Below are positions 47,005 through 63,832 of a stretch of DNA of 64,000 nt, one piece after another. Numbering within the stretch: the stretch's first letter is position 1; every line of letters begins with the position of its first letter. The stretch covers positions 130,870 to 194,869 of the forward strand of contig SWDM01000023.1 of assembly GCA_005116835.1 (NCBI GenBank). The letters are read 5' to 3'. The position numbers and the translations under genes were made by a program. This stretch comes from Nitrospira sp. GTDB taxonomy: Bacteria; Nitrospirota; Nitrospiria; Nitrospirales; Nitrospiraceae. The notes under the pieces are model-generated. The model did no database searches. It had not been told where the DNA came from and saw nothing but the letters and a program-made list of their open reading frames with translations.

Positions 47005-47006
47005 CC

Positions 47007-47495
47007 ATGGGAGGTGGCGGAGGTGGCTCAAGCAGCATCGGAAATATTCAGTCGCTGGTGGACAAGGCTAAGCAGGAACTGAGGAAGAGCGAACAGCAGG
47101 GAGAGAAGAGGAATGTCTTTATCAGCTTCGCCTATGAGGACATCAATGAGGTGAATCTACTCCGCGGTCAGGCAAAGAATGAGAACTCCCCCATTGAGTT
47201 CAACGATTGGTCGGTTTCAGAACCGATCGACAGCGAGCGAGCCCCTTATATCAAACAAAAAATAGCGGAGCGAATCCAGCAGTCGTCGCTAACCGTGGTG
47301 TTTCTTTCCAATGCAACGGCGAAGAGTAAATGGGTGGCATGGGAGATTGAGGAAAGTCTCAAAATGGGCAAACAGGTTCTAGGCGTTTACCCCAAAGATA
47401 ACAAGCCAGCTTCTTTTCCAGAGGCCATTAATGCGAATAAGATTAAATGTGTGACATGGCCAGATCTGGCAAGCACCATCGCGAAGCTTAAGTAA
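47007..47495 (+). CDS. ThsB-like TIR protein with N-terminal hexaglycine
   Basis: The 162-residue product begins Met followed by six glycines and three serines. It then has a short helix (NIQSLVDKAKQELRKSEQQ) and a TIR-like DUF1863 domain (about residues 35-160). That domain has RNVFISFAYEDINEVNLL, FNDWSVSEPI and KSKWVAWEIEESL, where Glu113 aligns with the catalytic glutamate of ThsB-type TIR proteins. The ATG at 47007 is 7 bases after GGAGG, which fixes the glycine-rich N-terminus. It is 2 bases after the QueC-like stop. Met before Gly is normally removed, exposing glycine. Confidence 0.88.
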   Translation: MGGGGGGSSSIGNIQSLVDKAKQELRKSEQQGEKRNVFISFAYEDINEVNLLRGQAKNENSPIEFNDWSVSEPIDSERAPYIKQKIAERIQQSSLTVVFLSNATAKSKWVAWEIEESLKMGKQVLGVYPKDNKPASFPEAINANKIKCVTWPDLASTIAKLK

Positions 47496-47506
47496 GTGAG
47501 TTGCTG

Positions 47507-49351
47507 ATGGTATCCCGGTTGAGCACTACGCTGTCGCGAGCCGTCGATCGTGTTTTTGGATACGATTTTTTCCTTTCTTACTCCCACAAAGATGGAAAGA
47601 ATTATCCGAGGCTTCTCAAAACCAGGCTTGAGCAAGTCGGATTCAAGGTGTTTCTCGACCAGACTGAATACGTCCCGGGAGACGATCTACGCCGCGAGAC
47701 AAGACGACAGGTTAAGAAAAGCCAGAAGCTTGTCGTGATCGCCAGGACAGACGCGCTAAAATCTGTCTGGGTGAAACGCGAGGTGGAGATCATCTTGGCC
47801 AGTGGGCGCACTCCGATTCTTATCGATCTCAACAACAGTGTGGAGCGCGCATCACCGGATGCGGAACTGGCGATGCTTGCGCGCGAGCATCATTGGTTGC
47901 GCCTTATGGAGACGAGCACTGATCCCGACGGAGTTCCAACGGACTATGCAGTATCGGAGCTAATCCGTTCGTTCGGAGTAATGCGTCAGGACGTCAAGCG
48001 CCAGCAGATCTTGGGCGTAACAGCGGCTGGATTCGCCCTTATTGCCATCTGGGCAGGGTATCTTGCATGGCTGTCGAATGAACGGCGACAGGAAGCCGAC
48101 ATGAGGCTCGCCACCACGCTCGAGACCGCCACGCGGTTCGTCAACCAGACCGTGCAAATGAGCGACAAATACGGTGTTCCTCGAGAATTTGTCCTCCAAC
48201 TCCTCAAGGAGCCTGAGCAGGTTTTTCTGCAACTTGCGAAATCAGGGACTGACACGCCCGAGGTTCGACAGCGGCGGGCTCAGACCCTGCTTGATTTCTC
48301 CGACAACTACGAGGTGCTTGGCGACTCAGATCAGCGACTGGCACGAGCGCGCGAAGCGAAAGCGATTCTTGCGGAGCTCGTCAGCAAGCATCCAGACAAA
48401 GTAGACTGGCAGCTTCGTCTCGCGACCGCGTCCAGTAAAATCGGGACTGCACTGCTGTTTCGCGGTGACAGGTCTGGTGCCGATGCAGAGTACGAGGAGG
48501 CGCTGCGGCTGCGCAAAATGTTGGCGGAAGCATATCCAGAGGATCGCAAGGTCCAGCGTGACTACTCGGTGGCGCTGAACCGTAAGGGGGAGATACTAAT
48601 TGGGCTTGGCCGCTATGAGGACGCCCGAGGCTATATCCGTCGGGCGCGTGATCTGCGCAGAAGCCTGTCAGGCGTGGATCCGGAAAACCGCGAACTGAAG
48701 CGCGATATTATCGTGTGCCAGATATGGCTCGGTGACAGCTTCAAGGCTGAGCAGAGATTTGCAGATGCTCGTACGGAGTATCTGGTGGCACTCGAAATCG
48801 CAGAGAGACTTACGCGAGAGGACGAGACGAGTAAGAATGCGGCACGCGATTTCACCGTGAGCCTGAACAAGATCGGCGAGACGTATCTTGGTGAGAAAGA
48901 CGCTGCGAGCGCCAAATTTTACTATGAGCGCGCACTTCCAGTCCGTAAACGGCTGGCTACTGACGAAAGCAATCGCGCCGCGCAGCGGGACCTTTTCGTG
49001 AGCTACATTCAGCTCGGCCACATCGCGTTCTCTGGGAAGCTGACCGGCAAGGCACGGAGCTATTTCGGCAACGCACTTGAGCTTGCCGAAAGGCTGTTCC
49101 AGAAAGATCCGAATTATGCACATTGGCAGGCCGATGCAGCCGAGGCTAGAGGTTGGTATGGAATGGTCGCAGAGGCTGGAGGCGAGACGATGATCCGTCA
49201 GGCTATTGCACAGCTCGATGCCATGCGTAGAGAGGGCAGACTCGTTGCGGATCGTGAGGTGCTGATTACACAATTCAAAGGCATCGTGGCAGAACGAACA
49301 GCCGATGCTGGACAAGACAAGCCGCCAGCCTCAATACCGCCGAACCGCTGA
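47507..49351 (+). CDS. Membrane TIR-TPR protein
   Basis: The 614-residue product has an N-terminal TIR domain (about 18-155; YDFFLSYSHKDGKNYPR, Glu92 in SVWVKREVEI). One membrane segment (167-189, ILGVTAAGFALIAIWAGYLAWL) and a long TPR array (about 245-590) follow. The TPRs have repeated patterns such as NRKGEILIGLGRYEDARGYIRRA and NKIGETYLGEKDAASAKFYYERA. The TIR is cytoplasmic if the TPRs lie outside; topology is not certain. It follows the poly-Gly TIR gene by 11 bases and is probably the last gene of that operon. Base composition is richer in G+C than in the four genes before it. Confidence 0.85.
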   Translation: MVSRLSTTLSRAVDRVFGYDFFLSYSHKDGKNYPRLLKTRLEQVGFKVFLDQTEYVPGDDLRRETRRQVKKSQKLVVIARTDALKSVWVKREVEIILASGRTPILIDLNNSVERASPDAELAMLAREHHWLRLMETSTDPDGVPTDYAVSELIRSFGVMRQDVKRQQILGVTAAGFALIAIWAGYLAWLSNERRQEADMRLATTLETATRFVNQTVQMSDKYGVPREFVLQLLKEPEQVFLQLAKSGTDTPEVRQRRAQTLLDFSDNYEVLGDSDQRLARAREAKAILAELVSKHPDKVDWQLRLATASSKIGTALLFRGDRSGADAEYEEALRLRKMLAEAYPEDRKVQRDYSVALNRKGEILIGLGRYEDARGYIRRARDLRRSLSGVDPENRELKRDIIVCQIWLGDSFKAEQRFADARTEYLVALEIAERLTREDETSKNAARDFTVSLNKIGETYLGEKDAASAKFYYERALPVRKRLATDESNRAAQRDLFVSYIQLGHIAFSGKLTGKARSYFGNALELAERLFQKDPNYAHWQADAAEARGWYGMVAEAGGETMIRQAIAQLDAMRREGRLVADREVLITQFKGIVAERTADAGQDKPPASIPPNR

Positions 49352-49438
49352 CTGTCGGTGGAAATCAGGTTGGAAGCGCTGTTTAGTGGTCTTGAAAGCT
49401 GTGGCATCGATACGCTTCAGAAAAACTAGGAAGCTTGC

Positions 49439-49564
49439 ATGATACCCCATGTTTTTGTCGCGATGCCATTCGGCTTGAAGAAAGTCAGACAAGACAACGA
49501 GATTGATTTCAATCGCGTCTATACCGAACTGATCAAACCCGTGCCGGAGTGGCACGAAGGATAG
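49439..49564 (+). pseudogene. Truncated N-terminal fragment of a deoxyribosyltransferase-like effector gene
   Basis: This 41-residue frame starts MIPHVFVAMPFGLKKVR and continues EIDFNRVYTELIKPVPEW. It clearly matches the first 35 residues of the intact protein encoded at 49975 (LCFVLMPFGKK, VDFDSIYELLIKPAV). It then stops, and the rest of the gene is missing. A MITE lies 11 bases downstream, so insertion or associated deletion probably removed the remainder. Confidence 0.75.
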
Positions 49565-49575
49565 CATAGGGTTAG

Positions 49576-49674
49576 GGAAGGTTTGATTAATTCAAAGTTC
49601 CAGGCAGTGACATCGTCGAATTCCCTGTGTTTTGAAGGTCGGCTGAGCGAAATCTTGAATTATTCAGACCTTCC
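49576..49674. mobile_element. 99 bp MITE with terminal inverted repeats and TTAG duplication
   Basis: The left end GGAAGGTTTGATTAATTCAA and the reverse complement of the right end, GGAAGGTCTGAATAATTCAA, match at 17 of 20 positions. Directly flanking 4-base repeats TTAG lie at 49572-49575 and 49675-49678, the expected target-site duplication. There is no coding capacity, so it needs a transposase supplied elsewhere. The parent IS was not identified. Confidence 0.8.
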
Positions 49675-49678
49675 TTAG

Positions 49679-49974
49679 ATTGATATGGTGGCGGTACTGC
49701 GCAGCACTTGCTGAATGCAGTCCACCTTGCCCGGGCGATGATATATGGCATCTGTTGCCCTGATAGATCCATGCAACCATTACATCTACTAATCAGTGCT
49801 GCACCGAATTGACGAGAAATTGTTAGAAGGGTACACTCGCGTCGCGAGAGTCTTTGGATGCCTTAGAACCTGGGACCGAAAAGAAGTTGAGGAGGTAGTT
49901 GCACCGGCTGAGATTTTGCGTGCCCCATCCATTGGAAGACGAGCCTGTTGTTAATCCGCTCAAGTAGCTCGACC
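49679..49974. other. Non-coding stretch after the MITE
   Basis: About 300 bp hold no convincing reading frame, promoter or RNA. A short hairpin, CTCGCGTCGCGAG, is near 49838. Scattered similarity to coding composition suggests decayed gene sequence, but nothing can be named. Confidence 0.5.
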
Positions 49975-51318
49975 ATGCTGCCACTATGCTTCGTGCTCAT
50001 GCCCTTCGGGAAAAAGCCAGCTGGCGATGGCCGGTTGGTGGATTTTGATTCTATTTATGAGTTGCTCATCAAGCCTGCCGTGGTGGCCGCGGGCCTTGAG
50101 CCGTTGCGTGCCGACGAGGAGATGACCGGTGGCGTGATCCACAAGCCCATGTTCGAACGGTTGATTCTCTGTGAATACGCGGTTGCAGACCTGACGACAG
50201 CCAACGCCAATGTTTTCTACGAGCTGGGATTGCGGCATGCCGTCCGACCAGCTAGCACGGTGCTGCTGTTTGCTCAGGGAATCGGCCAATTGCCATTTGA
50301 CGTTGCGCCATTACGCGCCATCCCGTACCAACTCGGCTCTGACGGCAAACCAGCGATGAACGATACGGACCGTGACAGGCTCACTACTAGGCTTCATGAA
50401 GCCCGCGAGGTCAAAACAGACAGTCCCGTTTTCCAACTCGTGGAGGGTTTTCCCGACATCCAGCGTCTCAAGACTGATGTGTTTCGCGAGCGTGTCGAGT
50501 ATTCCAGCACACTTCGACAGAAACTGGCGCAAGCTCGCAAGCAAGGCGTTGAGGCGGTTCGGGCTCTAGAGCGAGAGATAGGGCCCATACATGATGTTGA
50601 GGCAGGCGTGGTGGTCGATCTGTTCCTTTCCTACCGTGCCGTGAAGGGTTGGGGCGACATGATTGCGCTGGGCCAGGAGATGTCGGCGCCGTTGGCGGCG
50701 ACGGTTCTCGTGCAGGAACAGTTGGGGTTGGCTTTGAACCGGGCCAATCGTGGCGAAGAAGCGGAACGAATACTGCTGGCTCTGATTGAGAGTCGCGGGC
50801 CGAGCAGCGAGACGTTCGGCATCCTTGGCCGGGTGTACAAGGATCGGTGGGAAGCAGCTCTGAAGGCCGGCGAGAAGGTCCTCGCACGCGGGCTGCTTGA
50901 AAAAGCTATCGGGGCCTACCTCAAGGGGTTCGAAGCCGACTGGCGCGACGCCTATCCCGGAATCAATGCCGTGACGCTCATGGAACTGAAAGAGCCGCCC
51001 GATTCCAGGCGCGACCAACTCATCCCGGTCGTCTCATACGCCGTGGAACGTCGCATGGCTTCCGGCAAGCCAGATTATTGGGACTATGCCACCCTACTGG
51101 AGCTGGCGGTGCTCGCCAAGGATCAGAACAAGGCTGAGTTGGTGCTTGCCAACGCACTTGCTGCAGTGCGCGAATCCTGGGAGCCGGAGACCACCGCTCG
51201 GAATCTCAGGCTGATTCGTGAGACTCGCGAGCGTCGCAAGGAGCCGTTCCAGTGGCTCAAAGAAATTGAAGAGGAGTTGGAGTGTTACCCCAAAACGGTA
51301 ATGCGTGATGGCGAATAA
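49975..51318 (+). CDS. Deoxyribosyltransferase-like plus TRAFs-binding (DUF4071) protein
   Basis: The 447-residue product starts with LCFVLMPFGKK. ERLILCEYAVADLTTANANVFYELGLRHAV follows, the pattern of the nucleoside 2-deoxyribosyltransferase/TIR-like fold (about residues 1-140). The remainder is helical and TPR-like (GRVYKDRWEAALKAGEKVLARGLLEKAIGAYLKGFEADWRDAYPGINAVTLM), as in the TRAFs-binding domain family DUF4071. Such proteins occur in bacterial conflict gene clusters. The start at 49975 is preferred over a TTG 27 bases earlier. The activity is not known; the N-terminal fold suggests nucleotide or NAD processing. Confidence 0.8.
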   Translation: MLPLCFVLMPFGKKPAGDGRLVDFDSIYELLIKPAVVAAGLEPLRADEEMTGGVIHKPMFERLILCEYAVADLTTANANVFYELGLRHAVRPASTVLLFAQGIGQLPFDVAPLRAIPYQLGSDGKPAMNDTDRDRLTTRLHEAREVKTDSPVFQLVEGFPDIQRLKTDVFRERVEYSSTLRQKLAQARKQGVEAVRALEREIGPIHDVEAGVVVDLFLSYRAVKGWGDMIALGQEMSAPLAATVLVQEQLGLALNRANRGEEAERILLALIESRGPSSETFGILGRVYKDRWEAALKAGEKVLARGLLEKAIGAYLKGFEADWRDAYPGINAVTLMELKEPPDSRRDQLIPVVSYAVERRMASGKPDYWDYATLLELAVLAKDQNKAELVLANALAAVRESWEPETTARNLRLIRETRERRKEPFQWLKEIEEELECYPKTVMRDGE

Positions 51319-51396
51319 TTCGCATGCATTATTTTGGGATATATGCGTGAGAAGGAGAGAGCTTGTTGTCGCTATGGATAGGAGGTTCAGGTCACG

Positions 51397-52092
51397 ATGA
51401 AGGTTTTCCTAGGATTTTCGTTCCGTGACGAAGACAGGGAGATTGTGGGGTTGGTGGATCAGCTGATAGCCAGTCATCTTGTTGAATTGAAAACAGGAGA
51501 ACGTTTGGGAGGGGATCAATTGACTCCCGCTGTCCAACGGCGCATCGAGGACAGTGATGCACTCGTAGGTGTCCTTACCAGGCGAGACAAAAGGCAAGAT
51601 GGGAAGTGGACAACGCATCAGTGGGTGCTCGATGAGATCGGGTGGGCTAGAGCAAAGAACCGGAAGGTAATCGCTTTAGTGGAGCAGGGCGTCGACATAG
51701 GAGGAATGTTCCTATCCCATGAACACATTTCCTTGGACAAAGGCAATCCCATTCAAGGCTTGATGGCACTTTCTGACACCATCGGTCTATGGAGACGGGA
51801 GCTAGGTCGTACTGTGAAAGTCCAAATCTTGCCGGTTGCGATTGCGCAAAGAGTGGGGGATGGCGGTAATGGTGTACGGTGCCGCCACCGCCTGTGGTTA
51901 AGGGGGGCGTCTTCATCGTGGTTGGATTTGACTCCTGTGCCTGAAGCTGGAGGCACGTTTGTTTTCGTGAATGGCGTACAAGATGAGCACCTTATCCAGC
52001 TGCAAGTTCAACAGGATAGCAAGATGTGGCAGTCCGTGGCCACCTCACAATGGATTCAGGTGACGATGAAGTCCGGAGGTGTAGGCCTATGA
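51397..52092 (+). CDS. TIR-domain protein with C-terminal beta-rich domain
   Basis: The 231-residue product has a TIR-like domain (about residues 1-145). It starts MKVFLGFSFRDEDREIVGLV, and Glu80 in THQWVLDEIGWA stands in the catalytic glutamate position. The C-terminal 85 residues (RVGDGGNGVRCRHRLWLRG through WIQVTMKSGG) are strand-rich and of unknown family. The stop overlaps the pYEATS-TIR start by ATGA, so the two are translated together. It starts the second immune gene run. Confidence 0.78.
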   Translation: MKVFLGFSFRDEDREIVGLVDQLIASHLVELKTGERLGGDQLTPAVQRRIEDSDALVGVLTRRDKRQDGKWTTHQWVLDEIGWARAKNRKVIALVEQGVDIGGMFLSHEHISLDKGNPIQGLMALSDTIGLWRRELGRTVKVQILPVAIAQRVGDGGNGVRCRHRLWLRGASSSWLDLTPVPEAGGTFVFVNGVQDEHLIQLQVQQDSKMWQSVATSQWIQVTMKSGGVGL

Positions 52093-52814
52093 CAATACAG
52101 ATTAAACAACAAGCGGTCCCTAAAGGTAAGGATTGGTGGGAATGGTCGGTGTGGCTCGAGGGGGCCAAAAAAGAACTCGAGGGCATTGATCATGTTGTAT
52201 ACACACTCCATCCAACCTTTCCCAATCCTGTTGTGCCGGTTACCAACCGGGCGACAGGATTTCGATTGGATTCCTCTGGGTGGGGAGAATTCACTATTTA
52301 CCTTCAAATCAAGAATAAAGATGGCTCGACGAGCAAGCGACGGCACTACCTGAAGCTTATTGATTCAGGTATCAATATGGCCAGATCGAATCAAAAGAGC
52401 GGAAAGCTCTCTTCGGCGAAGGAACCGTCACGTCGCACGGTTTTCGTTTCCGGCGGCACAAGAGATTTAGATGCCGTTCACGCAGTTCGCGAGGCGTTAT
52501 CGGGACAGGACGTCGAGGTCGTGGGACCGCAGGATGTCAAGGCTGGACAGCAATGGCAAGGAACCGTAAGCGACATGATTGCACGAGCTGACTCTGCTGT
52601 TTTCGTGATCTCTGGCCGACCGAATCTTTGGATGAACGAGGAAATTAAAGCTGCCATCAAAGTGGGTGTGCGGCATATTCTTCCCCTCGTAATAGGCGCG
52701 AACGTGGAGTTGCCTGATATTTTGCGAGACATCAATGCTGTCCGCGTTGAGAATTCGTCGGATGTGGCAAACATTACAGAGACGATCCTTAAACAATCGC
52801 TGGGGAGGAAATGA
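52089..52814 (+). CDS. pYEATS-TIR protein
   Basis: The 241-residue product has an N-terminal prokaryotic YEATS domain (about 4-92; DWWEWSVWLEG, IDHVVYTLHPTFPNP, GWGEFTIYLQIKNKDG). A linker and a TIR domain (about 116-235) follow, starting RRTVFVSGGTRDLDAVHAV and with Glu184 or Glu185 in WMNEEIKAAI. YEATS folds in eukaryotes read acyl-lysine; the ligand of pYEATS domains is not established. The start at 52089 overlaps the upstream stop. This is probably a sensor-effector pair in one chain. Confidence 0.85.
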   Translation: MTIQIKQQAVPKGKDWWEWSVWLEGAKKELEGIDHVVYTLHPTFPNPVVPVTNRATGFRLDSSGWGEFTIYLQIKNKDGSTSKRRHYLKLIDSGINMARSNQKSGKLSSAKEPSRRTVFVSGGTRDLDAVHAVREALSGQDVEVVGPQDVKAGQQWQGTVSDMIARADSAVFVISGRPNLWMNEEIKAAIKVGVRHILPLVIGANVELPDILRDINAVRVENSSDVANITETILKQSLGRK

Positions 52815-52857
52815 TGCTTCGTCACTATTGCTAGGGGCTAAGCATGCATGGAGGAAA

Positions 52858-53766
52858 ATGATGGCTATCGCATCGAGATCGGCTCTCAGAAATGGAAGCG
52901 TGTGTTTGGGACTGTTTGGTATGTTCTTGGTGATGGGCTGTGGGCTCACGATTCAGCAAAAGGGGGCAGTGAATCAATTCGCCACTGCTACGCGTGACCT
53001 ATCCGTCTCAGCCCAGGCTGAGTTTCAGCGGAGCCGTCAAGATGTCGTCGAGATGAATCGCTTTCGGCTCGAGCTTGGTGATCCGATGGCCGACGTGAAC
53101 AAACTGGATTCGTTGCTAACCCTCGATCGAACCCGAGATCGTATCATGGCTCTTCAAGCTCTCGAAGACTATGGGGGATTGTTGAACAAACTCGTTGGTA
53201 TTGTTCCTGAGGGCGAACTTCTTGAAGCCAGCAACACTTTTGTCGGAAGCCTTAAGCAAGTCAAGGGGGTGCAGTTGACCGACCAGGAAGCGGGAGGGAT
53301 CGGAAAGGCCGTGGCCGCAGTCGGTGGGCTCTATGTTGAATACAAAAGAGCTGCGGCGGTTCGCCATGTGGTGGAAACGACACATGCACCGGTTCTTGCC
53401 GTGATCGATCTCGTGAAGAAAGACTTCGATCCGAACTCGGATTTCTGGAGTGCAGGTTACCGGAAAACGGCAGTAGACTTAAGTGGTCATGCGGAATCCC
53501 TTGATCTCCTATATCCTCCAAAGGATCTCCTGTCTAAGCAGAGCACCCAGCGGGCCAAAACCCTTGCTACCGAAAACATGAACAGATTTAGCGCTATCTC
53601 CGTACAGATCATGACTCTTGTCAGCACACTTGCTGAGGCACAAAAAAATCTTCGTCTTGTGCTGAATCCATCCGAACTCAATGTTCAAAGTATCGACCAT
53701 CTTGCAACACAAGTTCGAGATTTCAAAACCATCTACGGCCTTCTACGAAACGAAGCGCCACGCTGA
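52858..53766 (+). CDS. Lipoprotein of unknown function in immune gene run
   Basis: The 302-residue product has a lipoprotein signal (SVCLGLFGMFLVMGCGLT). A long helical body follows, with NQFATATRDLSVSAQAEFQRSRQDVVEMNRF and a C-terminal segment rich in charged helices. I recognise no family. GGAGG precedes tandem ATG codons at 52858 and 52861, and the frame further upstream is not used. It lies between the pYEATS-TIR and small helical genes on the same strand. An envelope-anchored sensor is one possible reading. Confidence 0.7.
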   Translation: MMAIASRSALRNGSVCLGLFGMFLVMGCGLTIQQKGAVNQFATATRDLSVSAQAEFQRSRQDVVEMNRFRLELGDPMADVNKLDSLLTLDRTRDRIMALQALEDYGGLLNKLVGIVPEGELLEASNTFVGSLKQVKGVQLTDQEAGGIGKAVAAVGGLYVEYKRAAAVRHVVETTHAPVLAVIDLVKKDFDPNSDFWSAGYRKTAVDLSGHAESLDLLYPPKDLLSKQSTQRAKTLATENMNRFSAISVQIMTLVSTLAEAQKNLRLVLNPSELNVQSIDHLATQVRDFKTIYGLLRNEAPR

Positions 53767-53780
53767 GCAGGAGGATGACT

Positions 53781-54164
53781 ATGCCCACAAGCCGCAAGAC
53801 ACGGAAGCGCCAAACTGCCACTCGTAAACGGAGTCTGAGCCGAGGACTTGGTGAACAGCGAGGGCTCGGACAACTTTTGCTCGACACTGTCGAAAATATC
53901 ATTGAGTTGATGAGGCACACTCAAGATCCAGACCGTCTCAAGGAACTGAACAGCAAAAGAATCGCGCTCTCGAAGGAAGCTGGCCGACTCATTGATGCCA
54001 CCCTTGATGCATCGAGTGCCGAATATCGGTCTGCTACCTTCGCACTGGAGGAAGCCGCAGGTACGATTCGTGGAGCCATTAAGGGACTTGAGGCAGTCAA
54101 GGATGCCATCCTGAAAGCGGCTAAGGCGCTGGAACTGATTGTCAAGGTGGTATCAATCGCGTAA
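53781..54164 (+). CDS. Small helical hypothetical protein
   Basis: The 127-residue product has a very basic N-terminus (SRKTRKRQTATRKRSLSRG). Amphipathic helices follow (LGQLLLDTVENIIELMRHTQ, AAGTIRGAIKGLEAVKDAILKAAKALELIVKVV); the last is hydrophobic enough to interact with a membrane. There is no family match that I know. The start at 53781 is 6 bases after AGGAGG. It lies 14 bp after the lipoprotein gene and 30 bp before the metacaspase gene, so it may be a partner or substrate of that protease. Confidence 0.65.
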   Translation: MPTSRKTRKRQTATRKRSLSRGLGEQRGLGQLLLDTVENIIELMRHTQDPDRLKELNSKRIALSKEAGRLIDATLDASSAEYRSATFALEEAAGTIRGAIKGLEAVKDAILKAAKALELIVKVVSIA

Positions 54165-54194
54165 CGCTCACTCTCTCGGTGAAAGGATCGTTAT

Positions 54195-55031
54195 ATGGCA
54201 AAGCGAGCTGTGCTCATTGGTATCAATCGGTATCAGATCCCCGGATCTGATCTGAGGGGTTGTGTCAATGACGTCAAGAATCTCCAGCAAGCGCTCACCA
54301 CGTACTATGGATTTTCAAACCAGGACATTGCGTCCCTCACCGACCTGAAGGCGACGAAGAAGGCCATGCAGTCGGCGATTAAGAAGCTGGTCACCGGTGG
54401 AAAGAAGGGCGATGTCCTGCTTCTACACTATTCAGGCCATGGGGCGAACGTGCCCGACGACAATGGTGATGAAGCGGATCACCGAGACGAGATATTGTGC
54501 CCAACCGACCTCGATTGGAATGACCCATTGCGTGACGACTGGCTCCGTAAGACATTCAATAAACTTCGATCGGGGGTGAGCCTCACGGTGATCATGGACT
54601 GCTGCCACTCAGGAACCAACACTCGCGTGTTCACTCCACCGGATGCTCCCATAAAAGAACGGTTCCTCCCCTGTCCGTTAGATTTGATGGCCAGTGAGTC
54701 CGGCAGGAAACTGCGTGGAACGCTTCGCGGTCAACTGGGAAAAGCTCCGCGAGGGCGCAAAAGAAAGAGCGATATCGTCCACGCCGATATTCAAGAGCTG
54801 CTGATCACCGGCTGCCGTGATACTCAGACCTCCGCCGATGCGCAAATCGGTGGCACCTTTAATGGTGCCTTGACCTATTACCTGGTCGAGTCGATTAGAG
54901 AGACCAAAGGCAATCTAACCTACCGAGAGCTGCATCAACGAACCGTCGCGAAACTCAAGAGCAATGAGTACGATCAAGTTCCGCAACTGGAAGGGCGACG
55001 TACGTCCTTTGATCGTCCATTTCTCAGTTAG
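54195..55031 (+). CDS. Metacaspase-like peptidase, family C14
   Basis: The 278-residue product is a caspase-fold protease. It starts AKRAVLIGINRYQIPGSDLRGCVNDV. The catalytic histidine is in LLHYSGHGANV (His82) and the catalytic cysteine in VIMDCCHSGTNT (Cys137). The C-terminal portion has ITGCRDTQTSADAQIGGTFNGALTYYL, typical of type I metacaspases. These enzymes usually cleave after Arg or Lys. It lies in a row of TIR and CHAT genes, which suggests a role in triggered proteolysis. Confidence 0.92.
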   Translation: MAKRAVLIGINRYQIPGSDLRGCVNDVKNLQQALTTYYGFSNQDIASLTDLKATKKAMQSAIKKLVTGGKKGDVLLLHYSGHGANVPDDNGDEADHRDEILCPTDLDWNDPLRDDWLRKTFNKLRSGVSLTVIMDCCHSGTNTRVFTPPDAPIKERFLPCPLDLMASESGRKLRGTLRGQLGKAPRGRKRKSDIVHADIQELLITGCRDTQTSADAQIGGTFNGALTYYLVESIRETKGNLTYRELHQRTVAKLKSNEYDQVPQLEGRRTSFDRPFLS

Positions 55032-55101
55032 CAGAGCTGTGCGATGACGCTATGACATTCCTGATGTTCGTCACCCATCCTTACTGCCTAAAGGAGTTCC
55101 C

Positions 55102-58100
55102 ATGAGTATTCAGCTGCGTATTGCCGGTCGGCCGACGTCGCCAGCGGAAGCAAGTGCAGCCGTTCGAGGAGATTCTCTCTCCGGACGAAGAGAGCAGCCC
55201 GATACGCGTCTGCTGGATGCTGTGGACGTGCTGGGCGCGTTCGAGATGTACCCGAAAGATCGTGCGGCATCGGAGAAGCCAACGATGCTTGAAGCCGAAG
55301 ACGATGACTTGATTGAATTCGTGCTGGAAGATGGCATCTCTGTGTGGACGTCGGTGGCTGCTCATCGAGAACGGCAACGCCGATTGAAGCCCGGTGTGCA
55401 GACGGCGAAGGAGCTGGATATCGACTTGGTTATCTCCACGCCCGCATCGAGCAGGGGACTGGTGAGCGATATCGTGACCGGCGCGGTACGAATTCTCCGG
55501 CTGAAACGAGACGAGGTGTGGGAACAAGCAAAAGATCCCACGCAGTGGCCGGCCTGGATAAAGCCGTACGGGGTGGCGACATTCGAGAAATTGGGGGCGT
55601 GGCTGACGGCCAAGTTGATCATCTGGTTTATCGAGAGAAAGATTCGTCCTGAAGAAGGGCTCTATCGGTGGGTCAAGCCATCGGCTGAAGACGGCCCTTC
55701 GCTCATTGCTCCAGGGAGTATTCCCTCCGATGCACATGTCCTTCTCTTTATTCATGGAACGGCCTCCAACACCATGGGGAGTTTCGGCGCGTTGCATACC
55801 GACGAGGCCTCGTCTGAATGGGACACACTCACGCGAACATTCAAAGATCATATTTACGCGTTTGACCATCGCACCTTGAGCCAGAGTCCAATCGACAATG
55901 CCGTGATGCTGGCGAACGCGCTTCCGGACGGCGCGCAAATTTCTCTGGTGTCACATTCACGGGGAGGGCAGGTGGCCGACCTGTTATGCCTACGAGAGTT
56001 GTCCTCCGAGCAGGTCAATCGGTTTCATCGAGAAGGCGACAAATCTCGCCAAGCAGATGAACATGACCGTCGACAGCTGGCTGAGTTGGCAAAGATCCTC
56101 CGTAAAAAGAAGTTTCGGATCGTGCGGCTCATTCGGGTAGCCTGTCCGGCTCAAGGGACATTGCTGGCCTCGGAGAATTTGGATCGTTTTCTCTCTGTGT
56201 TGACCAGCCTCATCGGGCTGATTCCTGTCGTGGGGCAGTCCCTGATTTACCAGGTTGCAAAACGCATCACGCTCGAAGTGGCTAAAAGCCGGTGGGATCC
56301 TTCGGTGATTCCAGGGGCCGAATCGATGGTTCCGCAATCGCCGCTCGTCGCATTACTCAATGCTCCGGACGTGCAGGGAGGGGGAGCCCTTGGCGTGATC
56401 GCTGGGGACATTGAGGACGTGAGCTGGTTCAAACGGTTGGGCACATTCATCACCGACAGGTTTATATATGACAATCAAGACAACGATTTGGTCGTCAATA
56501 CCAATTCAATGTTTCAGGGAGTGCCTCGAAGCGCAGTCTCTCGATACATTTTCGATCAGGGATCCGATGTCTCCCATTTTCGATACTTCCGAAATTCGCG
56601 CACGCGTCATCTGTTGGTGCAGTCGATTACGAACGCAGGGGAGCAATGGCCTGCGGAATTTCGCTTGCTCGATGAAGCCAAGGTTGCTCCGGTTCCCATG
56701 CTGCGTTCCATTCAAACGAGATCGGGGGCGAGCCAGCCTGTTGTCTTCGTACTCCCTGGAATCATGGGATCGGAACTACAAGCCAACGGCGACGATGTCT
56801 GGCTGAGCTATTTGAGCCTCTTCCTCGGCCATATCGACAAGATTGCGGTGGATGCACCTAATGTGGAGGTCAATGGCCTCGTCAGCACGTACTATCGTGA
56901 CCTCTGCAATTATCTGGGCGATACACATGAAGTCATTCCCTTCGGCTACGATTGGCGTCATTCAATTACACGCGCCGCTTCTAAGCTGGCGGACGAAGTG
57001 AAGAAGGTGGTGGCTCGGACAGGTGAACCAATTCGGTTCATCGCCCACAGCATGGGTGGTCTCGTGGTACGGCGGCTCATCAAAGACTTTCCAGATTTGT
57101 GGGAGACACTGTGCAAACGGGAGGGCGCTCGATTCGTCATGCTGGGGACGCCCAACCGCGGGTCCTATGATATGGTGGAGTCACTGGCTGGCATGGCGAA
57201 AACTGTCAAACAGCTGGCCTTGCTCGATGTTACCCATTCGATGAGTGAAATCGTCGCGATTGTGTCTGCCTACCAAGGGGCGCTGGAGCTCTTGCCTCAA
57301 GATGAAGGGGAATATTTTACCTCTCAAAAATGGACGGAACTTCATCCGCTGACGGAATCCAAAGTTCAGATCAAGCCCCAAATACTGCAAGATGCCAAGG
57401 CCGCGCTTGCCGATCTTCCTGAACGGATTCCCCATGCGGAGTGCGTGCGTTACGTGGCGGGGTGGGCGCCCAAGACCGTGTGTGGAGTGAAGGTCGAAAA
57501 CCAACGCCTCTCCTTTCAGGCAACGACGGCGGGCGATGGCCGTGTGACCTATAAAGCGGGTCTGCTTCCGGACATTCCTGTGTGGTATGTCGATGCCGAG
57601 CATGGCGACTTGGCGGACCACAAGCCGGCGTTTCCAGCCTATCGCGACTTGCTTGAGCGAGGCGTGACCAATCAGCTTTCTACCACACCCTTGAGCGCCG
57701 ACCGAGGCGGCGAATCGATCTTCGACTACGAGCATGAACCGGTGTTGTACCCGACAGCATCGGATTTTGAAGCAGGCCTGCTCGGGAAGCGGCGAAAAGC
57801 ACTGAAAGTACGCACTTCCGAGAAGTTGCAGGTGTCGGTGCTGCACGGCGATCTGATTCACACCAACCATCCTATTCTGCTCGGTCATTACCAGGGCGAC
57901 ACGATTTTCGGGTCTGAACAGCTCGTGGACCGTTTTTTGGTCGGAAATTCTCTATCCCAACGCTACAATTTGGGCCGTTATCCAGGGCGAACGGAGACGG
58001 TTGCCGTTGTGCTGACCCAGCCAAACGACGTTCAAACAGCCTTTCGTATCCGACACGGGGCGATCGTGATTGGCCTCGGCAAATGGGGTGAATTGACACC

Positions 58101-60741
58101 CTCGGTGCTCACCCAAGCCGTGCATCATGGCGTGATGGAGTATTGTGTGCAATTTGCCCAGTGTTGTGGTTCGACGGAAGCATCGACGATCTCGACCGGT
58201 CTCACCATCAACAGTTTACTAATCGGATCCAATACGTCGGCGAACATTGCCGTCGAGGATTCGGTGAATGCGATTGTACGAGGAGTAATTCTTGCCAATC
58301 GCGCCCTGATGGAACAGAACCATGCGTTTCCGAGAATTACACATGTTCAGTTCATTGAGCTGTATCTGGACGTGGCGATTGATGCGGCAAAAACGGTGCA
58401 TCGCCTGGCCAAGCGCATTGAGCGTGACCTTCAGGCTGAGATCGACGTGGCGACGTGGTTGAAGAAGGGGATTGGGGGGCGGACGAGGTATGTCCCATCG
58501 AGTACGCGGGGCTATTGGCGTCGCTGGACGGTCTCTGCGGTTCATGATGCCCCGGCTCCTGCCCCCTGCATCCTGTCTCCGGTGTTGAAAGATCGGCTCC
58601 GCATAACCCTTCAAGACGAGAAGGTCAATGATCCCAGAGTTCTGAATGCTCTCCTAGATTTGGCTTTCAAAGACGATGGCCCCGTGCGTCGCCATCCGCG
58701 CAAGCTTCGTTTTCTTGCTCTGTCGGATCGCGCCCGCGCTGAAGTGATTGTGGAGGAAACTCAACCGGAATTGATCGCTCAGCTCATTCAGCGTTCGATC
58801 ACCTCCACAGCGTTCAGACGGGATATCGCCAAAACGCTCTTTGAACTGTTGATCCCATTGGATCTTAAGGATAGCCTCCTCAACCAAGACCGTGTGGTAT
58901 TGGTCCTTGACGACGTGACAGCAAACTATCCTTGGGAACTAATGATCGACGTTGACCAGCCGCTGTGCATTCGGATCGGTATGGTTCGGCAGCTGGAAAC
59001 AGCCGACTACGAAGAGCGTATCCGAGATACGACCGCAACCAACGTCTATGTGGTTGGAAACCCCCTTACTCCTTCCAATTATCCGACGTTGCCCGGTGCT
59101 CAGAAAGAAGCAGAACTTGTCGCGTCATTACTGAAGCCTCACTATGCCGTCAACCATTCAAGCCAACGGCTTGGCGCCCTCGAGGTGCTCAACCAGCTCT
59201 TTGCCCAGCCCTATCGGATCATCCACATCGCCGGGCATGGCTCTTACAACGAAGCGGAGACCGAATTGTCTGGGGCGAAGGCTGGTGTGGTGCTCGACAA
59301 CGGACTCTTTCTCACCGCGGCGGAAATCGCCAAGCTGGACCCGATTCCGGAATTGGTGTTCTTGAATTGTTGCTATCTCGGGCAAATTGGCGGCACGGCT
59401 TACAATAAGATGGCCGCCAGCATCTCGCGCGAATTGATTAGAAAAGGCGTGCGTGCAGTCGTGGCAGCCGGATGGCCGGTTCGGGACGATGCGGCGCTCT
59501 GTTTCGCGCAAGTATTCTACAAGAAGCTGCTCGACTCTCAGCCGTTCGGTCATGCGCTAAAGGAGGCGAGGCAACAGACCTGGGCCCTCTTCCCGGAGTC
59601 CAACACCTGGGGGGCCTACCAAGCCTATGGGGATCCGGATTTCCGATTGAGGCAGAATCATGACGTGCAAGTAGACAACGAGGACGTGACCGTTGCGGCG
59701 GAGGAGGTGCTCATTGCCTTGGATGATCTCGAACATCAGAGCGGTGAACCGGATGTGGCAACACTCCAGAATAAACTCGACGACCTAAAAGGGAGATGCG
59801 CAGTCGATTGGCTGAAACAGGGAAATGTTCAAGAGCAGTTAGGGAAAGTCTATGGCGAGCATGGTCTCTTTCAGGAGGCGGTCGCGCACTATAAGAAGGC
59901 CGCAGAGAGTGAAGATATCGAGAATCCGGCGACGTGTCGGGGGATCGAACAGTGGATCAATCTTGAGGCGCGGCTTGGCAAGAAGATCAACGACAAGGCG
60001 AGAATTAAAAGAGCTATCAAACGGGGCCTGGATTTACTCAAGATTGCAGAAACATCCGAGCGTTTGAGTATCATGGGCAGCGCGTACAAGAGACTGGCAG
60101 AGCTTGATGAAGAGCCGAGTGAGATCACGACGAATCTGAAAGAGGCTGCTGCGTACTATCAAAAAGCAGCGGAGAGACAAGAGCAAGAGCCATTGGCAGA
60201 TCCGTATCCGATTATGAATTGGCTGACGATAGAGGCACTTCTTGAAACATCCAAGGTGCCGTACGAATCGTGGTTGTCGAAAGCCGAGATTCTGGCACGG
60301 CAGCGTTTCCAGGCGACGCGCAAGGCGTGGGATTTGTTTGCCGTAGCGGATATCGAAGTTCTCCGAGCCATTCAGAATAAAAAAGAGTCGATAAAGAGCG
60401 CTGGGCTTGTGGGTAAGTATCGAAAGGTCTTTACCGAGTCGGCTGCGACCCAACGAGAACAAGATTCAGCTCGCAGTCAATTAGAGTTCATAATCACGAT
60501 GCGGCAGAAATTGTCTCGCTCTCGTCGCCAAAAGAGGGCGGTCGATTCGATCGGTGACGCACTGACCGATATTCGACATCATCTTGAGAAGTCGAAGCCC
60601 CAGGCGAAACCCTCGCCGATCCAACCAAAAGTAACCAGCAAGCCCTCCCCCACAAGCAAGGCACCGGCGAAACAGCCTTTGCAAAAGAGTTCCGTGCAAG
60701 AGAAAAAAACGCGTCGTCCGAAGCGTCACAGGAAGGGATAG
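55102..60741 (+). CDS. Giant double alpha/beta-hydrolase, CHAT protease and TPR protein
   Basis: The 1879-residue product combines several domains. The first hydrolase (about 210-520) has HVLLFIHGTASN and the nucleophile elbow SHSRGG (Ser286). The second, LCAT/lipase-like (about 545-760), has PGIMGSEL (552-559) and AHSMGG (Ser650). A middle region of unknown family (about 800-1250) follows. The CHAT protease domain (about 1270-1530) has HIAGHG (His1379) and FLNCCYLG (Cys1423/Cys1424). TPR-like helices (about 1560-1780) and a basic, Pro/Lys-rich tail end the protein. Coupling a caspase-like protease to lipases in one chain suggests self-activation or membrane damage. It follows the metacaspase by 70 bp. 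Confidence 0.88.
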   Translation: MSIQLRIAGRPTSPAEASAAVRGDSLSGRREQPDTRLLDAVDVLGAFEMYPKDRAASEKPTMLEAEDDDLIEFVLEDGISVWTSVAAHRERQRRLKPGVQTAKELDIDLVISTPASSRGLVSDIVTGAVRILRLKRDEVWEQAKDPTQWPAWIKPYGVATFEKLGAWLTAKLIIWFIERKIRPEEGLYRWVKPSAEDGPSLIAPGSIPSDAHVLLFIHGTASNTMGSFGALHTDEASSEWDTLTRTFKDHIYAFDHRTLSQSPIDNAVMLANALPDGAQISLVSHSRGGQVADLLCLRELSSEQVNRFHREGDKSRQADEHDRRQLAELAKILRKKKFRIVRLIRVACPAQGTLLASENLDRFLSVLTSLIGLIPVVGQSLIYQVAKRITLEVAKSRWDPSVIPGAESMVPQSPLVALLNAPDVQGGGALGVIAGDIEDVSWFKRLGTFITDRFIYDNQDNDLVVNTNSMFQGVPRSAVSRYIFDQGSDVSHFRYFRNSRTRHLLVQSITNAGEQWPAEFRLLDEAKVAPVPMLRSIQTRSGASQPVVFVLPGIMGSELQANGDDVWLSYLSLFLGHIDKIAVDAPNVEVNGLVSTYYRDLCNYLGDTHEVIPFGYDWRHSITRAASKLADEVKKVVARTGEPIRFIAHSMGGLVVRRLIKDFPDLWETLCKREGARFVMLGTPNRGSYDMVESLAGMAKTVKQLALLDVTHSMSEIVAIVSAYQGALELLPQDEGEYFTSQKWTELHPLTESKVQIKPQILQDAKAALADLPERIPHAECVRYVAGWAPKTVCGVKVENQRLSFQATTAGDGRVTYKAGLLPDIPVWYVDAEHGDLADHKPAFPAYRDLLERGVTNQLSTTPLSADRGGESIFDYEHEPVLYPTASDFEAGLLGKRRKALKVRTSEKLQVSVLHGDLIHTNHPILLGHYQGDTIFGSEQLVDRFLVGNSLSQRYNLGRYPGRTETVAVVLTQPNDVQTAFRIRHGAIVIGLGKWGELTPSVLTQAVHHGVMEYCVQFAQCCGSTEASTISTGLTINSLLIGSNTSANIAVEDSVNAIVRGVILANRALMEQNHAFPRITHVQFIELYLDVAIDAAKTVHRLAKRIERDLQAEIDVATWLKKGIGGRTRYVPSSTRGYWRRWTVSAVHDAPAPAPCILSPVLKDRLRITLQDEKVNDPRVLNALLDLAFKDDGPVRRHPRKLRFLALSDRARAEVIVEETQPELIAQLIQRSITSTAFRRDIAKTLFELLIPLDLKDSLLNQDRVVLVLDDVTANYPWELMIDVDQPLCIRIGMVRQLETADYEERIRDTTATNVYVVGNPLTPSNYPTLPGAQKEAELVASLLKPHYAVNHSSQRLGALEVLNQLFAQPYRIIHIAGHGSYNEAETELSGAKAGVVLDNGLFLTAAEIAKLDPIPELVFLNCCYLGQIGGTAYNKMAASISRELIRKGVRAVVAAGWPVRDDAALCFAQVFYKKLLDSQPFGHALKEARQQTWALFPESNTWGAYQAYGDPDFRLRQNHDVQVDNEDVTVAAEEVLIALDDLEHQSGEPDVATLQNKLDDLKGRCAVDWLKQGNVQEQLGKVYGEHGLFQEAVAHYKKAAESEDIENPATCRGIEQWINLEARLGKKINDKARIKRAIKRGLDLLKIAETSERLSIMGSAYKRLAELDEEPSEITTNLKEAAAYYQKAAERQEQEPLADPYPIMNWLTIEALLETSKVPYESWLSKAEILARQRFQATRKAWDLFAVADIEVLRAIQNKKESIKSAGLVGKYRKVFTESAATQREQDSARSQLEFIITMRQKLSRSRRQKRAVDSIGDALTDIRHHLEKSKPQAKPSPIQPKVTSKPSPTSKAPAKQPLQKSSVQEKKTRRPKRHRKG

Positions 60742-60845
60742 GCGCGAAGAGAAGGCTTGGTAAATGGGATCTATAACAGAGAATGCGAAGATCTCAGATG
60801 GCGGCCTTCAAGTTCAGAGGTGTCTGATTCTAAGATGGAGTACGA

Positions 60846-62000
60846 ATGGAACCAGTCGATCTGTTTTACAGCTATGCCCATGAGGATAAGTCGCTACGCG
60901 ACGAACTCGCGGGGCACCTCAAGATTATGGAGCGCCGTGGCGTGATTCGGTCATGGCACGACGGGTGTCTGACTCCCGGTCAGAAATGGGACGACGAGAT
61001 CAATGCGCAGTTACAAGCCGCAGACCTCGTGCTGCTGCTGGTTAGCACGGACTTCATCAACTCGGACTATATCTGGGGCCACGAGTTGGACGTGGCTATG
61101 AAGCGGCATGCGAATGGGAAGATAAGCCTGGTTCCGGTGATGCTGCGCGCCGTGGATATTACCGGCGCCCCCTTTGCTGATTTGCAGGGCCTGCCGACGG
61201 ACCGGCGGCCCGTGACCTCGTGGCCTAATCGGGATGAGGCCTGGACGGATGTGGCCAAGGGGATCAGAAAAACGGTGGAACTGATTCAAGCGAAATGGAG
61301 TCAGCTCGCACCATCGCCGGCACTAACGCCTCCGGCGGAAGCGCCCGCGCCACCACGCGCCATGGCTTCCCCAGCCGCATCGGGAGAGGGGCAGAGTTTG
61401 AGATTTGTGCGGCCGAAAGAAATCCTTCTCAGCTCCGATAAGCCCACGGCGAGTACTAGCCCCACGGTGGTTACGTCTGACCCGTTACTCGACCGTGTCG
61501 TGAAGGAATTTTCAGCGAAGGTCACAGAAGCCGCCAAATCCCGTGGGGGTCATGACCTTGATCCGGCGATGGCCAAGCAATACGCGCTCACACTAATCGA
61601 CGCACCGGACCAAAAGCGTATCCTCTGGGTAGATGATCGGCCTGACAACAACCGGTTCGAAGCAGCGGCCCTGGCCAAGCTTCAGATTGAGGTGGTGGCG
61701 GTTACCAGTACGAAGGCTGCGTTGGCACGGCTGGCCTCAGATCCCGAGCCGTTCGACTTGGTGTTGTCGGATTGGCAACGGCCTGAGTTGCACCTTGATA
61801 CGCTGAGCGCGGGGATCCATCTGCTGCGGCAATTGCGAGAGCGCCATCTGACCATGCCGGTGGTGTTTTATCATGCGAGTACCAGCGAGCGGGAGCGGAG
61901 CGCGCGCCAAGAGTTGGCGATTCGTGAAGGCGCTTTTGGTGAAGCGGTCATGCCAGACGAGCTGCTTGGCTTGGTGATCAGCGCGCTTGGCGTGCATTGA
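60846..62000 (+). CDS. TIR-receiver domain fusion protein
   Basis: The 384-residue product has an N-terminal TIR domain (about 1-150) with DLFYSYAHEDKSLRDELAGHL and Glu80 in IWGHELDVAM. A Pro/Ala-rich linker (155-205) and a receiver-type domain (about 257-380) follow. In the receiver part, KRILWVDDRPDNN gives the acidic pocket and FDLVLSDWQRPE carries Asp309, where phosphorylation would occur. FYHAS stands in the Thr/Ser position. No histidine kinase is near. It lies about 100 bp after the CHAT gene and is probably last in that run. Confidence 0.85.
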   Translation: MEPVDLFYSYAHEDKSLRDELAGHLKIMERRGVIRSWHDGCLTPGQKWDDEINAQLQAADLVLLLVSTDFINSDYIWGHELDVAMKRHANGKISLVPVMLRAVDITGAPFADLQGLPTDRRPVTSWPNRDEAWTDVAKGIRKTVELIQAKWSQLAPSPALTPPAEAPAPPRAMASPAASGEGQSLRFVRPKEILLSSDKPTASTSPTVVTSDPLLDRVVKEFSAKVTEAAKSRGGHDLDPAMAKQYALTLIDAPDQKRILWVDDRPDNNRFEAAALAKLQIEVVAVTSTKAALARLASDPEPFDLVLSDWQRPELHLDTLSAGIHLLRQLRERHLTMPVVFYHASTSERERSARQELAIREGAFGEAVMPDELLGLVISALGVH

Positions 62001-62374: not shown

Positions 62375-62959
62375 TTAGCCGACCCAGGTTCCGAAGTTCG
62401 TATAGCCGTTATTGGCTACCCAATCATATTCCTTGTACCACTCCGTTAGATTGAACCCTTTGCCTCGGTACTGGGGATTGACAGCATCGATTTGATATGA
62501 CGAACGCCCGTCTATTTCGGAATACTCTCTCCAGTTTCCGTTTGAATGCTCCCAGAGCGTGGCAGTTACCCCGTTCTCTGAGAATGTGACGCCAAGATAG
62601 CCAAGCGGATTCGGTCCCTTCACCTTTGTCTGTTGATCTTTCCCTTTAATCGGGTTGATATGCACGGCGAGTATCGAGTTTCCTCTTTTGAAACTCTTCA
62701 GGATTTCATATCGTACCCACTTTCGTGCATACGTTTCTGAGCCGATCAATACACATGTGACAGTCGTCCCTTCAAGACCAGAATTGACCACACGCTTGAT
62801 GCCAACGTCGCCGGATAACTCTGCATTTCCCCAGATTGACGCATCAAAAAATCCTGCCGCCTCTCGATCTGGTTTTGTCATCCAATGCTGCCGGACGACA
62901 TTGGCGCGGAAATCGATTACATCCTGGTAGTGAAAGCTGAAAAATACACGTTTCGCCAT
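62375..62959 (-). CDS. ThsB-like TIR protein (DUF1863)
   Basis: The 194-residue product has the TIR-like domain of Thoeris ThsB. It starts KRVFFSFHYQDVIDFRANVVRQHW, has AGFFDASIWG in the middle, and VTCVLIGSETYARKWVRYEILKSFKRGN, where the glutamate in RYEI is the expected catalytic residue. A C-terminal part (VTATLWEHSNGNWREYSEID) is shared by longer members. ThsB makes a cyclic ADP-ribose isomer from NAD+. The start MAKRVFF at 62959 is preferred. It lies 90 bp after the nuclease-like gene on the same strand. Confidence 0.85.
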   Translation of the reverse strand: MAKRVFFSFHYQDVIDFRANVVRQHWMTKPDREAAGFFDASIWGNAELSGDVGIKRVVNSGLEGTTVTCVLIGSETYARKWVRYEILKSFKRGNSILAVHINPIKGKDQQTKVKGPNPLGYLGVTFSENGVTATLWEHSNGNWREYSEIDGRSSYQIDAVNPQYRGKGFNLTEWYKEYDWVANNGYTNFGTWVG

Positions 62960-63049
62960 GGCCTTTGGTCTCACATGGTGGCTGCTACTCTGCAGTTACT
63001 GTTACAACGGCTTTTTGTAAGCTATCGACGGGATGGGCTAATCCCAGCC

Positions 63050-63832
63050 TTAGACGTATTTCTTGATCTCTGTTTCCAGTATTTTTCTGAGCCTTGCTGT
63101 TTGGCCAATCGCGTATTGAATAGTCCTGTTGTTACGGACGTTAAATGGCAGCGCAGCTTGTAAAGTACAACAGATCTGAATCACTGGCTTTTGAAGTCCC
63201 TCTGCGTAGCCAATTTCATGCAGCACATTTGGCCGCGAATCTGATAGGTCTGCGATGACAACCTTGGCTGCCTCGATCATGGCTTTGATTTGGGGTACGA
63301 CCGGACCAGCGGTACCGTTGTGATCCACTCGCTCAGCGATGGCGCCATTAACAAGTGAGGCTGGATCAATCGCGACAAGAAACGTGTCGTCATACTGCGG
63401 CGCAAAAGGCATTGATGCGAATACCTTCTTCTTTGGAGCTAGCTGTACAGGTTGCGGATGCCGGGACTTTTTACTTTGAGCCAGATTGCTGGTAAGTCCT
63501 GCAAGTGCGTTGATGAGCCCGCCAATTGGTGTGACGGCGATCACTGCCGATGCGATAGATTCAAGTACGGCGGATGTAACTATTACCGCGGCGTTAGCTT
63601 TTGACATCTCCTTATAACGGTGTGCCTGATTTAAGGCTCGTGCTGTAGAGTCTGGGCTAACTTCCCAAGCTTTCACCTCGACAACGATCTGATCTCCCTT
63701 CTCGGTAGTGACCACGAAGTCCGGACGAGCCTTACCAACTACCATATCTCTTTGATAATTGATCCCTGCATCGCGCAGTGTCTTCTCAACTTGCGCCTCT
63801 AGCGCCAAATGGTCCTGAGGTTCAATCGGCAT
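63050..63832 (-). CDS. PD-(D/E)xK nuclease-like protein with deoxyribosyltransferase-like C-terminus
   Basis: The 260-residue product has a nuclease-like N-terminus (about 8-85). ARPDFVVTTEKGDQIVVEVKAW gives Asp38, Glu52 and Lys54 of the PD-(D/E)xK motif. A hydrophobic segment (about 92-113) follows, then a nucleoside 2-deoxyribosyltransferase-like domain (136-250) with KVFASMPFAPQYDDTF and VVIADLSDSRPNVLHEIGYAEGLQKPVIQI. It is upstream of a ThsB-like TIR gene on the same strand. The C-terminal fold could bind a nucleotide signal and trigger the nuclease, by analogy with Thoeris; this is inference. Confidence 0.8.
   Translation of the reverse strand: MPIEPQDHLALEAQVEKTLRDAGINYQRDMVVGKARPDFVVTTEKGDQIVVEVKAWEVSPDSTARALNQAHRYKEMSKANAAVIVTSAVLESIASAVIAVTPIGGLINALAGLTSNLAQSKKSRHPQPVQLAPKKKVFASMPFAPQYDDTFLVAIDPASLVNGAIAERVDHNGTAGPVVPQIKAMIEAAKVVIADLSDSRPNVLHEIGYAEGLQKPVIQICCTLQAALPFNVRNNRTIQYAIGQTARLRKILETEIKKYV

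Follow-up and report, generated by a model that had tools for sequence, protein, structure and literature searches.

The window analyzed here is a 64,000-nucleotide stretch of DNA (G000:C16:130870-194869) within the 3.94-Mb genome of a Nitrospira sp. (G000). Toward its end, a gene encoding a PD-(D/E)xK domain fused to a deoxyribosyltransferase-like (DRHyd) domain is followed by a gene for a ThsB-like TIR protein, as an initial annotation had described, and both open reading frames (ORFs) are on the minus strand. Another TIR gene, of the CAP12/PycTIR type, is upstream on the same strand and is separated from the fusion gene by 207 nt. The features are as follows.

63832-63050, minus strand: fusion gene (gene 1), 260 aa, PD-(D/E)xK (Mrr-like) plus DRHyd (deoxyribosyltransferase/DNPH1-like)
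63458-63832, minus strand: PD-(D/E)xK domain of the fusion, codons 1-125 (domain residues 1 to ~115)
63050-63427, minus strand: DRHyd domain of the fusion, residues ~133-260
62960-63049, minus strand: gap from the fusion gene to ThsB, 90 nt (75 nt if a GTG start is used)
62959-62375, minus strand: ThsB gene (gene 2), TIR, 194 aa, catalytic E85
64855-64040 (L001: 2488-3303), minus strand, just beyond the window edge: upstream TIR gene, CAP12/PycTIR-type, 271 residues, C-terminal part unassigned
44265-49351, plus strand: consecutive genes for a TIR_2-TGT fusion, an Ogg-HhH protein, QueC, a ThsB_TIR protein, and a TIR-TPR protein
52026-62000, plus strand: NAD/protease-type conflict cassette of pYEATS-TIR, a possible lipoprotein, a caspase, an alpha/beta-hydrolase-CHAT-TPR-S protein (1879 aa), and TIR-receiver

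Searched alone, the N-terminal domain of the fusion protein matched Pfam Mrr_cat at 23.3 bits (cut-off, 21). By structure comparison, a model of the isolated domain (pLDDT 89) resembled the PD-(D/E)xK nucleases McrC, Can2/Cdn1, EndoMS, and Hjc, and chains of Can2, Cdn1, Can1, Card1, and Cap4 were also among the fold matches. Asp38, Glu52, and Lys54 are exactly where the initial annotation placed them. Together with a QxxxY motif (Q69 and Y73), they are invariant in the window protein and in its homologues from a Desulfobacca MAG and a Verrucomicrobia MAG, which are in two other phyla. The N-terminal domain is a real PD-(D/E)xK (Mrr-like) domain with its D...ExK residues in place. A PDB sequence search with gene 1 returned only noise, and we found no dedicated Pfam or PADLOC model for a PD-(D/E)xK-DRHyd fusion.

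The C-terminal domain scored 22.3 bits against Pfam Nuc_deoxyrib_tr (PF05014), below the cut-off of 28.8. Its model (confidence mostly >70) was closest in fold to human DNPH1 (Z 15.3, 119 residues, rmsd 2.5 Å), and it also resembled MilB, NDT, and TIR folds (Z 13-15). The lack of a nucleotide pocket here would have refuted the initial annotation. The model has a nucleotide-binding fold of the DNPH1/NDT/TIR type, and the DRHyd domain likely contains such a pocket. Conserved residues of the domain are R168, D170, D195, N202, and E206. In a profile built from ten DRHyd domains, E206, in the motif N-x-x-x-E-x-G, aligned with the Glu that is conserved in Rcl/DNPH1 and in NDT, and this catalytic Glu was present in all ten. 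Because the catalytic glutamate of the N-glycosidases is kept, the domain may have an enzymatic role instead of a sensory one, and it looks at least as enzyme-like as sensor-like. DNPH1 and MilB are hydrolases of hydroxymethylated nucleoside monophosphates. The window domain is in a divergent group, with a family-specific MPF motif in the loop after strand 1. TIR, DRHyd, and SLOG domains form one clade of Rossmann domains that includes the ThsA sensor, and inactive members of this clade have been proposed to be ligand sensors (Aravind and colleagues, PMC9503650).

Judged by its sequence, the second gene encodes a genuine, full-length ThsB with an intact catalytic site. It matched Pfam ThsB_TIR (PF08937) at 63.8 bits (cut-off, 21.2) and the best PADLOC ThsB model at 178.7 bits, with a slightly higher score (180.3 bits) against PADLOC PDC-M50B. 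Its alignment with the ThsB structures 6lhy and 9b7d spans the whole protein (E ~1e-68). E85 was defined as catalytic in ThsB (PMC10022894), and the window protein has this residue at the same position, within a WVRYE motif. The ATG at 62959 is the likelier start, the alternative being a GTG at 62974 that would give 199 residues. Between this ThsB and its orthologues, pN was 0.08-0.18 and pS was 0.76-0.86, with synonymous sites near saturation. Low pN with near-saturated pS across varied contexts shows that ThsB is under strong purifying selection.

No site resembling a promoter or a terminator was detected on this strand in the stretch that separates the fusion gene from ThsB. GC3 is 0.48 for the fusion gene (0.483, the lowest among the 41 window ORFs of at least 200 codons), 0.53 for ThsB, and 0.46 for the upstream TIR gene, against a window median of 0.61. 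These low values would be compatible with recent arrival, but the ThsB gene of another genome of the family (G264), which has no nuclease neighbor, is just as low (0.53).

A genome search with ThsA found no ThsA-like SIR2-SLOG protein in the window's genome. The control genome (G294), in which a 54% identical ThsB relative is paired with a canonical SIR2-SLOG ThsA, was recovered. The best ThsA match in the window's genome was a SIR2-only protein of 277 aa on another contig, which has PF13289 only and aligned over residues 38-214. Most other ThsB relatives that we examined adjoin a PDC-M50A membrane protein, ThsA (L033 and L118), or SLOG proteins. The PDC-M50A profile had no match in the window ORFs or in the stretches around the ThsB genes of three genomes with close orthologues (G264, G449, and G027). 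Therefore, the window ThsB clade, with no PDC-M50A, ThsA, or SLOG neighbor, needs some other partner.

Elsewhere, ThsB with a small membrane protein that matches PADLOC PDC-M50A is widespread in bacteria, cyanobacteria, and haloarchaea. The ThsB loci beside such a match are L034-L042, L116, L119, L122, L129, L131, and L133. SLOG cluster proteins stand beside ThsB in L120, L121, L123, and L132 and are recurrent on plasmids. L120, L123, and L132 have a repeated three-gene run of ThsB, a ~390-aa TIR protein, and a SLOG cluster3 (LD_cluster3) protein.

A family-wide census found this ThsB clade in 4 of 175 genomes, with orthologues 73-83% identical. The nuclease accompanies ThsB in one of the four, the window copy. 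In G264 (ThsB 83% identical), the nuclease-DRHyd neighbor is absent. The ThsB spot there shares the left flank of the window's island (77-85% identity for the genes of Fur, an M32 peptidase, and a methyltransferase), and so at this shared chromosomal spot ThsB is present and gene 1 is missing. G449 (76% identical) has two TIR genes upstream of ThsB, and G027 (73% identical) has no evident partner; neither has a nuclease-DRHyd neighbor. As a separate observation, in this stretch of G264 (L050: 8543-12912) the ThsB gene is convergent with a WD40 gene and is a few kilobases from a DUF4231/SLATT_3 (SLATT-type) membrane protein.

Full-length homologues of the nuclease-DRHyd protein numbered two, one in the Desulfobacca MAG (L060, 38%) and one in the Verrucomicrobia MAG (L061, 36%), and both retain all catalytic residues of both domains. 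Their genomes had no ThsB match, and there was no TIR or ThsB neighbor as far as the contigs reach. The Verrucomicrobia genome has 13 TIR_2 matches, none of them on the contig of the nuclease homologue. With only two full-length homologues and a Desulfobacca contig that stops 681 bases after the gene, their solitary status is thinly sampled. Viral contigs had no relative of ThsB or of the fusion protein, and phages had matches to the DRHyd domain only.

With the nuclease absent from three of the four ThsB genomes and no ThsB found in either genome with a nuclease homologue, the two genes travel separately. Neither implies the other, and their pairing is not obligate. On the evidence of the close ThsB orthologues and the two full-length homologues of the nuclease, we rejected a co-evolving pair as a general rule. 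The pair is not conserved in relatives, an outcome that the initial annotation had itself named as grounds for refutation. We also rejected a three-gene operon with the CAP12-type TIR gene, because six further genomes of the family have a member of that TIR family (37-46% identical) and all six lack this ThsB clade. Plasmid candidates from Bradyrhizobium, Agrobacterium, and Paraburkholderia were partial matches, in which DRHyd has other N termini with no nuclease motif.

DRHyd proteins do occur beside ThsB or other TIR genes. The closest relative of the window domain (49-50%) is in a Nitrospiria MAG (G132; L003/L054/L062), where the gene is a fragment cut by the contig end; 152 nt downstream of it, a TIR_2 gene follows in the same orientation. 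G449 has a DRHyd-type protein 159 nt downstream of ThsB, and on a Pseudanabaena plasmid an Hsp90-like ATPase that matches DRHyd is 207 nt from ThsB. In a within-locus control of ten plasmid loci, a DRHyd ORF was within 3 kb of ThsB in two (Pseudanabaena, and Rhizobium with a 74-codon fragment) and farther out in none. This proximity on plasmids is suggestive, but few loci were sampled and immune genes tend to cluster, and so it is a lead rather than proof. DRHyd as a general TIR partner was rejected, because most DRHyd loci from genome searches had no TIR detectable within 1.5 kb (a lower bound, because detection used a small custom TIR profile).

The surroundings of the two genes also matter. 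The genome has six TIR_2 matches, and five of them fall in the window at 44274-61187. In an island this dense in TIRs, a TIR neighbor is expected for nearly any gene, and therefore it is weak evidence for pairing. TGT, OGG, and QueC are the ancillary trio of type IV CBASS, and no CD-NTase was found among the scanned genes neighboring the TGT/OGG/QueC cluster of the island. The caspase gene (54195-55031, plus strand) stands apart at a distance of 7.3 kb, and other TIR genes are closer to it.

Our preferred explanation, which we consider roughly an even bet, is that gene 1 encodes a stand-alone PD-(D/E)xK nuclease, which its own DRHyd domain gates or is coupled to, and that it lies beside an orphan ThsB. 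Gene 1 would be a member of a small, patchy family of one-gene nucleases. Its nucleotide-binding, Rossmann-type DRHyd domain would control, or cooperate with, the PD-(D/E)xK domain, by analogy with Can2/Card1 and Cap4, whose nuclease domains are under the control of CARF or SAVED domains. A Rossmann-type sensor joined to a PD-(D/E)xK domain is an established effector layout. The gene would have landed in a defense-type island next to an orphan ThsB, and the nuclease could use a ligand that ThsB does not make, the ThsB clade being retained without the nuclease. Both proteins have identifiable domains with intact catalytic residues, and there is no conserved pairing. Gating of the nuclease by DRHyd, an anti-phage role, and an NAD-derived or deoxynucleotide metabolite as the ligand are our inferences. 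The stand-alone explanation is weakened by the DRHyd and TIR genes of G132, by DRHyd beside ThsB in G449 and Pseudanabaena, and by the failure to find a full ThsA in the genome. We rank it ahead of a Thoeris-like relay, with DRHyd as a toxic enzyme third.

The relay is what the initial annotation proposed: ThsB would sense infection and make a cyclic ADP-ribose isomer, DRHyd would bind it as a substitute for the ThsA SLOG domain and activate the nuclease, and the nuclease would cut phage or host DNA. Several parts of that proposal survive, including the intact ThsB, the PD-(D/E)xK domain, and a nucleotide-binding fold that belongs to the same TIR-DRHyd-SLOG clade as the ThsA sensor (PMC9503650). 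The genes are close on the same strand (75-90 nt), with no promoter- or terminator-like site found between them, and the genome search yielded a SIR2-only protein elsewhere in place of a SIR2-SLOG ThsA. It is also favored by the SLOG neighbors of ThsB on plasmids, the DRHyd neighbors in G449 and Pseudanabaena, and the low GC3 that both genes have in common with the upstream TIR gene. However, the pairing is kept in one of four ThsB orthologues and with neither full-length gene 1 homologue, the DRHyd domain retains an enzyme-like catalytic Glu, the surroundings are a TIR-dense island, and the G264 ThsB has the same low GC3 with no nuclease. On balance the relay is partly supported, and we regard it as possible but doubtful. 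That DRHyd is a further TIR-DRHyd-SLOG branch reading the cyclic ADP-ribose-type signal of ThsB, with DNA cleavage as the output, is likewise rather unlikely. The DRHyd domain could instead be a putative toxic enzyme that hydrolyzes NAD+ or (modified) deoxynucleotides, with the PD-(D/E)xK domain cleaving or binding DNA. Its fold is nearest DNPH1 and MilB, E206 aligns with the DNPH1/NDT Glu and is in all ten domains compared, and Retron-Eco1 is a precedent for an NDT-like effector and defense by NAD+ hydrolysis (PMC12405507). Even so, we consider this improbable: the loop after strand 1 carries the family-specific MPF motif, and full retention of the PD-(D/E)xK catalytic residues makes a mere DNA tether unlikely. 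It is more improbable still that the genes are unrelated passengers of a defense hotspot, with ThsB served by an unlinked partner or by the upstream CAP12-type TIR protein and gene 1 decaying or serving a non-defense role. The island is indeed rich in unrelated conflict genes, ThsB is an orphan in G027 and G264, and the upstream TIR family and ThsB do not co-occur in relatives. But the gene 1 ORF is full length, none of its catalytic residues has been lost, and it has homologues in remote phyla, which argues against decay.

Comparison with known systems shows a similar mix of likeness and difference. The window ThsB shows full-length homology with the type I Thoeris chains 6lhy and 9b7d and keeps E85, but the type I effector is a SIR2-SLOG ThsA in the operon, whereas here the neighbor is a PD-(D/E)xK-DRHyd nuclease in a pair that is not conserved. 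Thoeris types II and IV have a TM-macro or a caspase-like effector (PMC12847820), and the fusion protein has neither. PDC-M50 is a PADLOC candidate system of ThsB and a small membrane protein; the window ThsB matches PDC-M50B (180.3 bits), but no PDC-M50A-like ORF is in the window or around the three close ThsB orthologues. Can2, Card1, Cdn1, and Cap4, from type III CRISPR and CBASS systems, likewise join a PD-(D/E)xK domain to a Rossmann-type nucleotide-binding domain. However, their sensor is CARF or SAVED, whereas the window fusion has DRHyd, with the nuclease domain first. Those effectors also have Cas10 or a CD-NTase nearby, and there was none among the neighboring genes scanned here. Retron-Eco1 places a deoxyribosyltransferase-like domain in phage defense, the candidate role here, but its NDT-like effector is described as standalone and as accompanied by a reverse transcriptase (PMC12405507). 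The window domain is nuclease fused, and no reverse transcriptase was among the neighbors scanned. DNPH1/Rcl, MilB, and the nucleoside 2-deoxyribosyltransferases share the C-terminal fold (Z 13-15) and the catalytic Glu, but the window domain differs in being fused to a nuclease and in belonging to a divergent MPF-motif group below the Pfam cut-off.

The known outputs of TIR signals are SIR2 NADase activity, membrane damage by TM-macro effectors, and caspase-like proteolysis (PMC12847820). Our literature search, which was incomplete for subscription papers, found neither a Thoeris system with a nuclease effector nor a PD-(D/E)xK-deoxyribosyltransferase fusion, and a 2015 survey of DRHyd, SLOG, and TIR domains may mention such fusions. 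If the relay were real, a nuclease-effector Thoeris would widen the output of TIR pathways by adding DNA cleavage to NAD+ depletion, membrane damage, and proteolysis, and DRHyd would be a new receptor fold for TIR signals that could be used as a search query. The best reading of the fusion itself is a rare, modular nuclease, either nucleotide-gated or nucleotide-cleaving, that joins a nucleotide-binding domain to a PD-(D/E)xK effector in an already known layout. Even with no pairing, this fusion, which occurs in three phyla, would be a compact protein for testing whether DRHyd domains are nucleotide sensors or nucleotide-cleaving enzymes in bacterial immunity.

DRHyd also occurs in other protein architectures near TIR genes. 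At 49948-51318 (plus strand) of the window, a gene encodes a DRHyd-TPR-S protein, and a TIR gene comes next at 51397. A trio of TIR, DRHyd-TPR, and TIR genes is recurrent on Acinetobacter plasmids (L066: 2609-4824).
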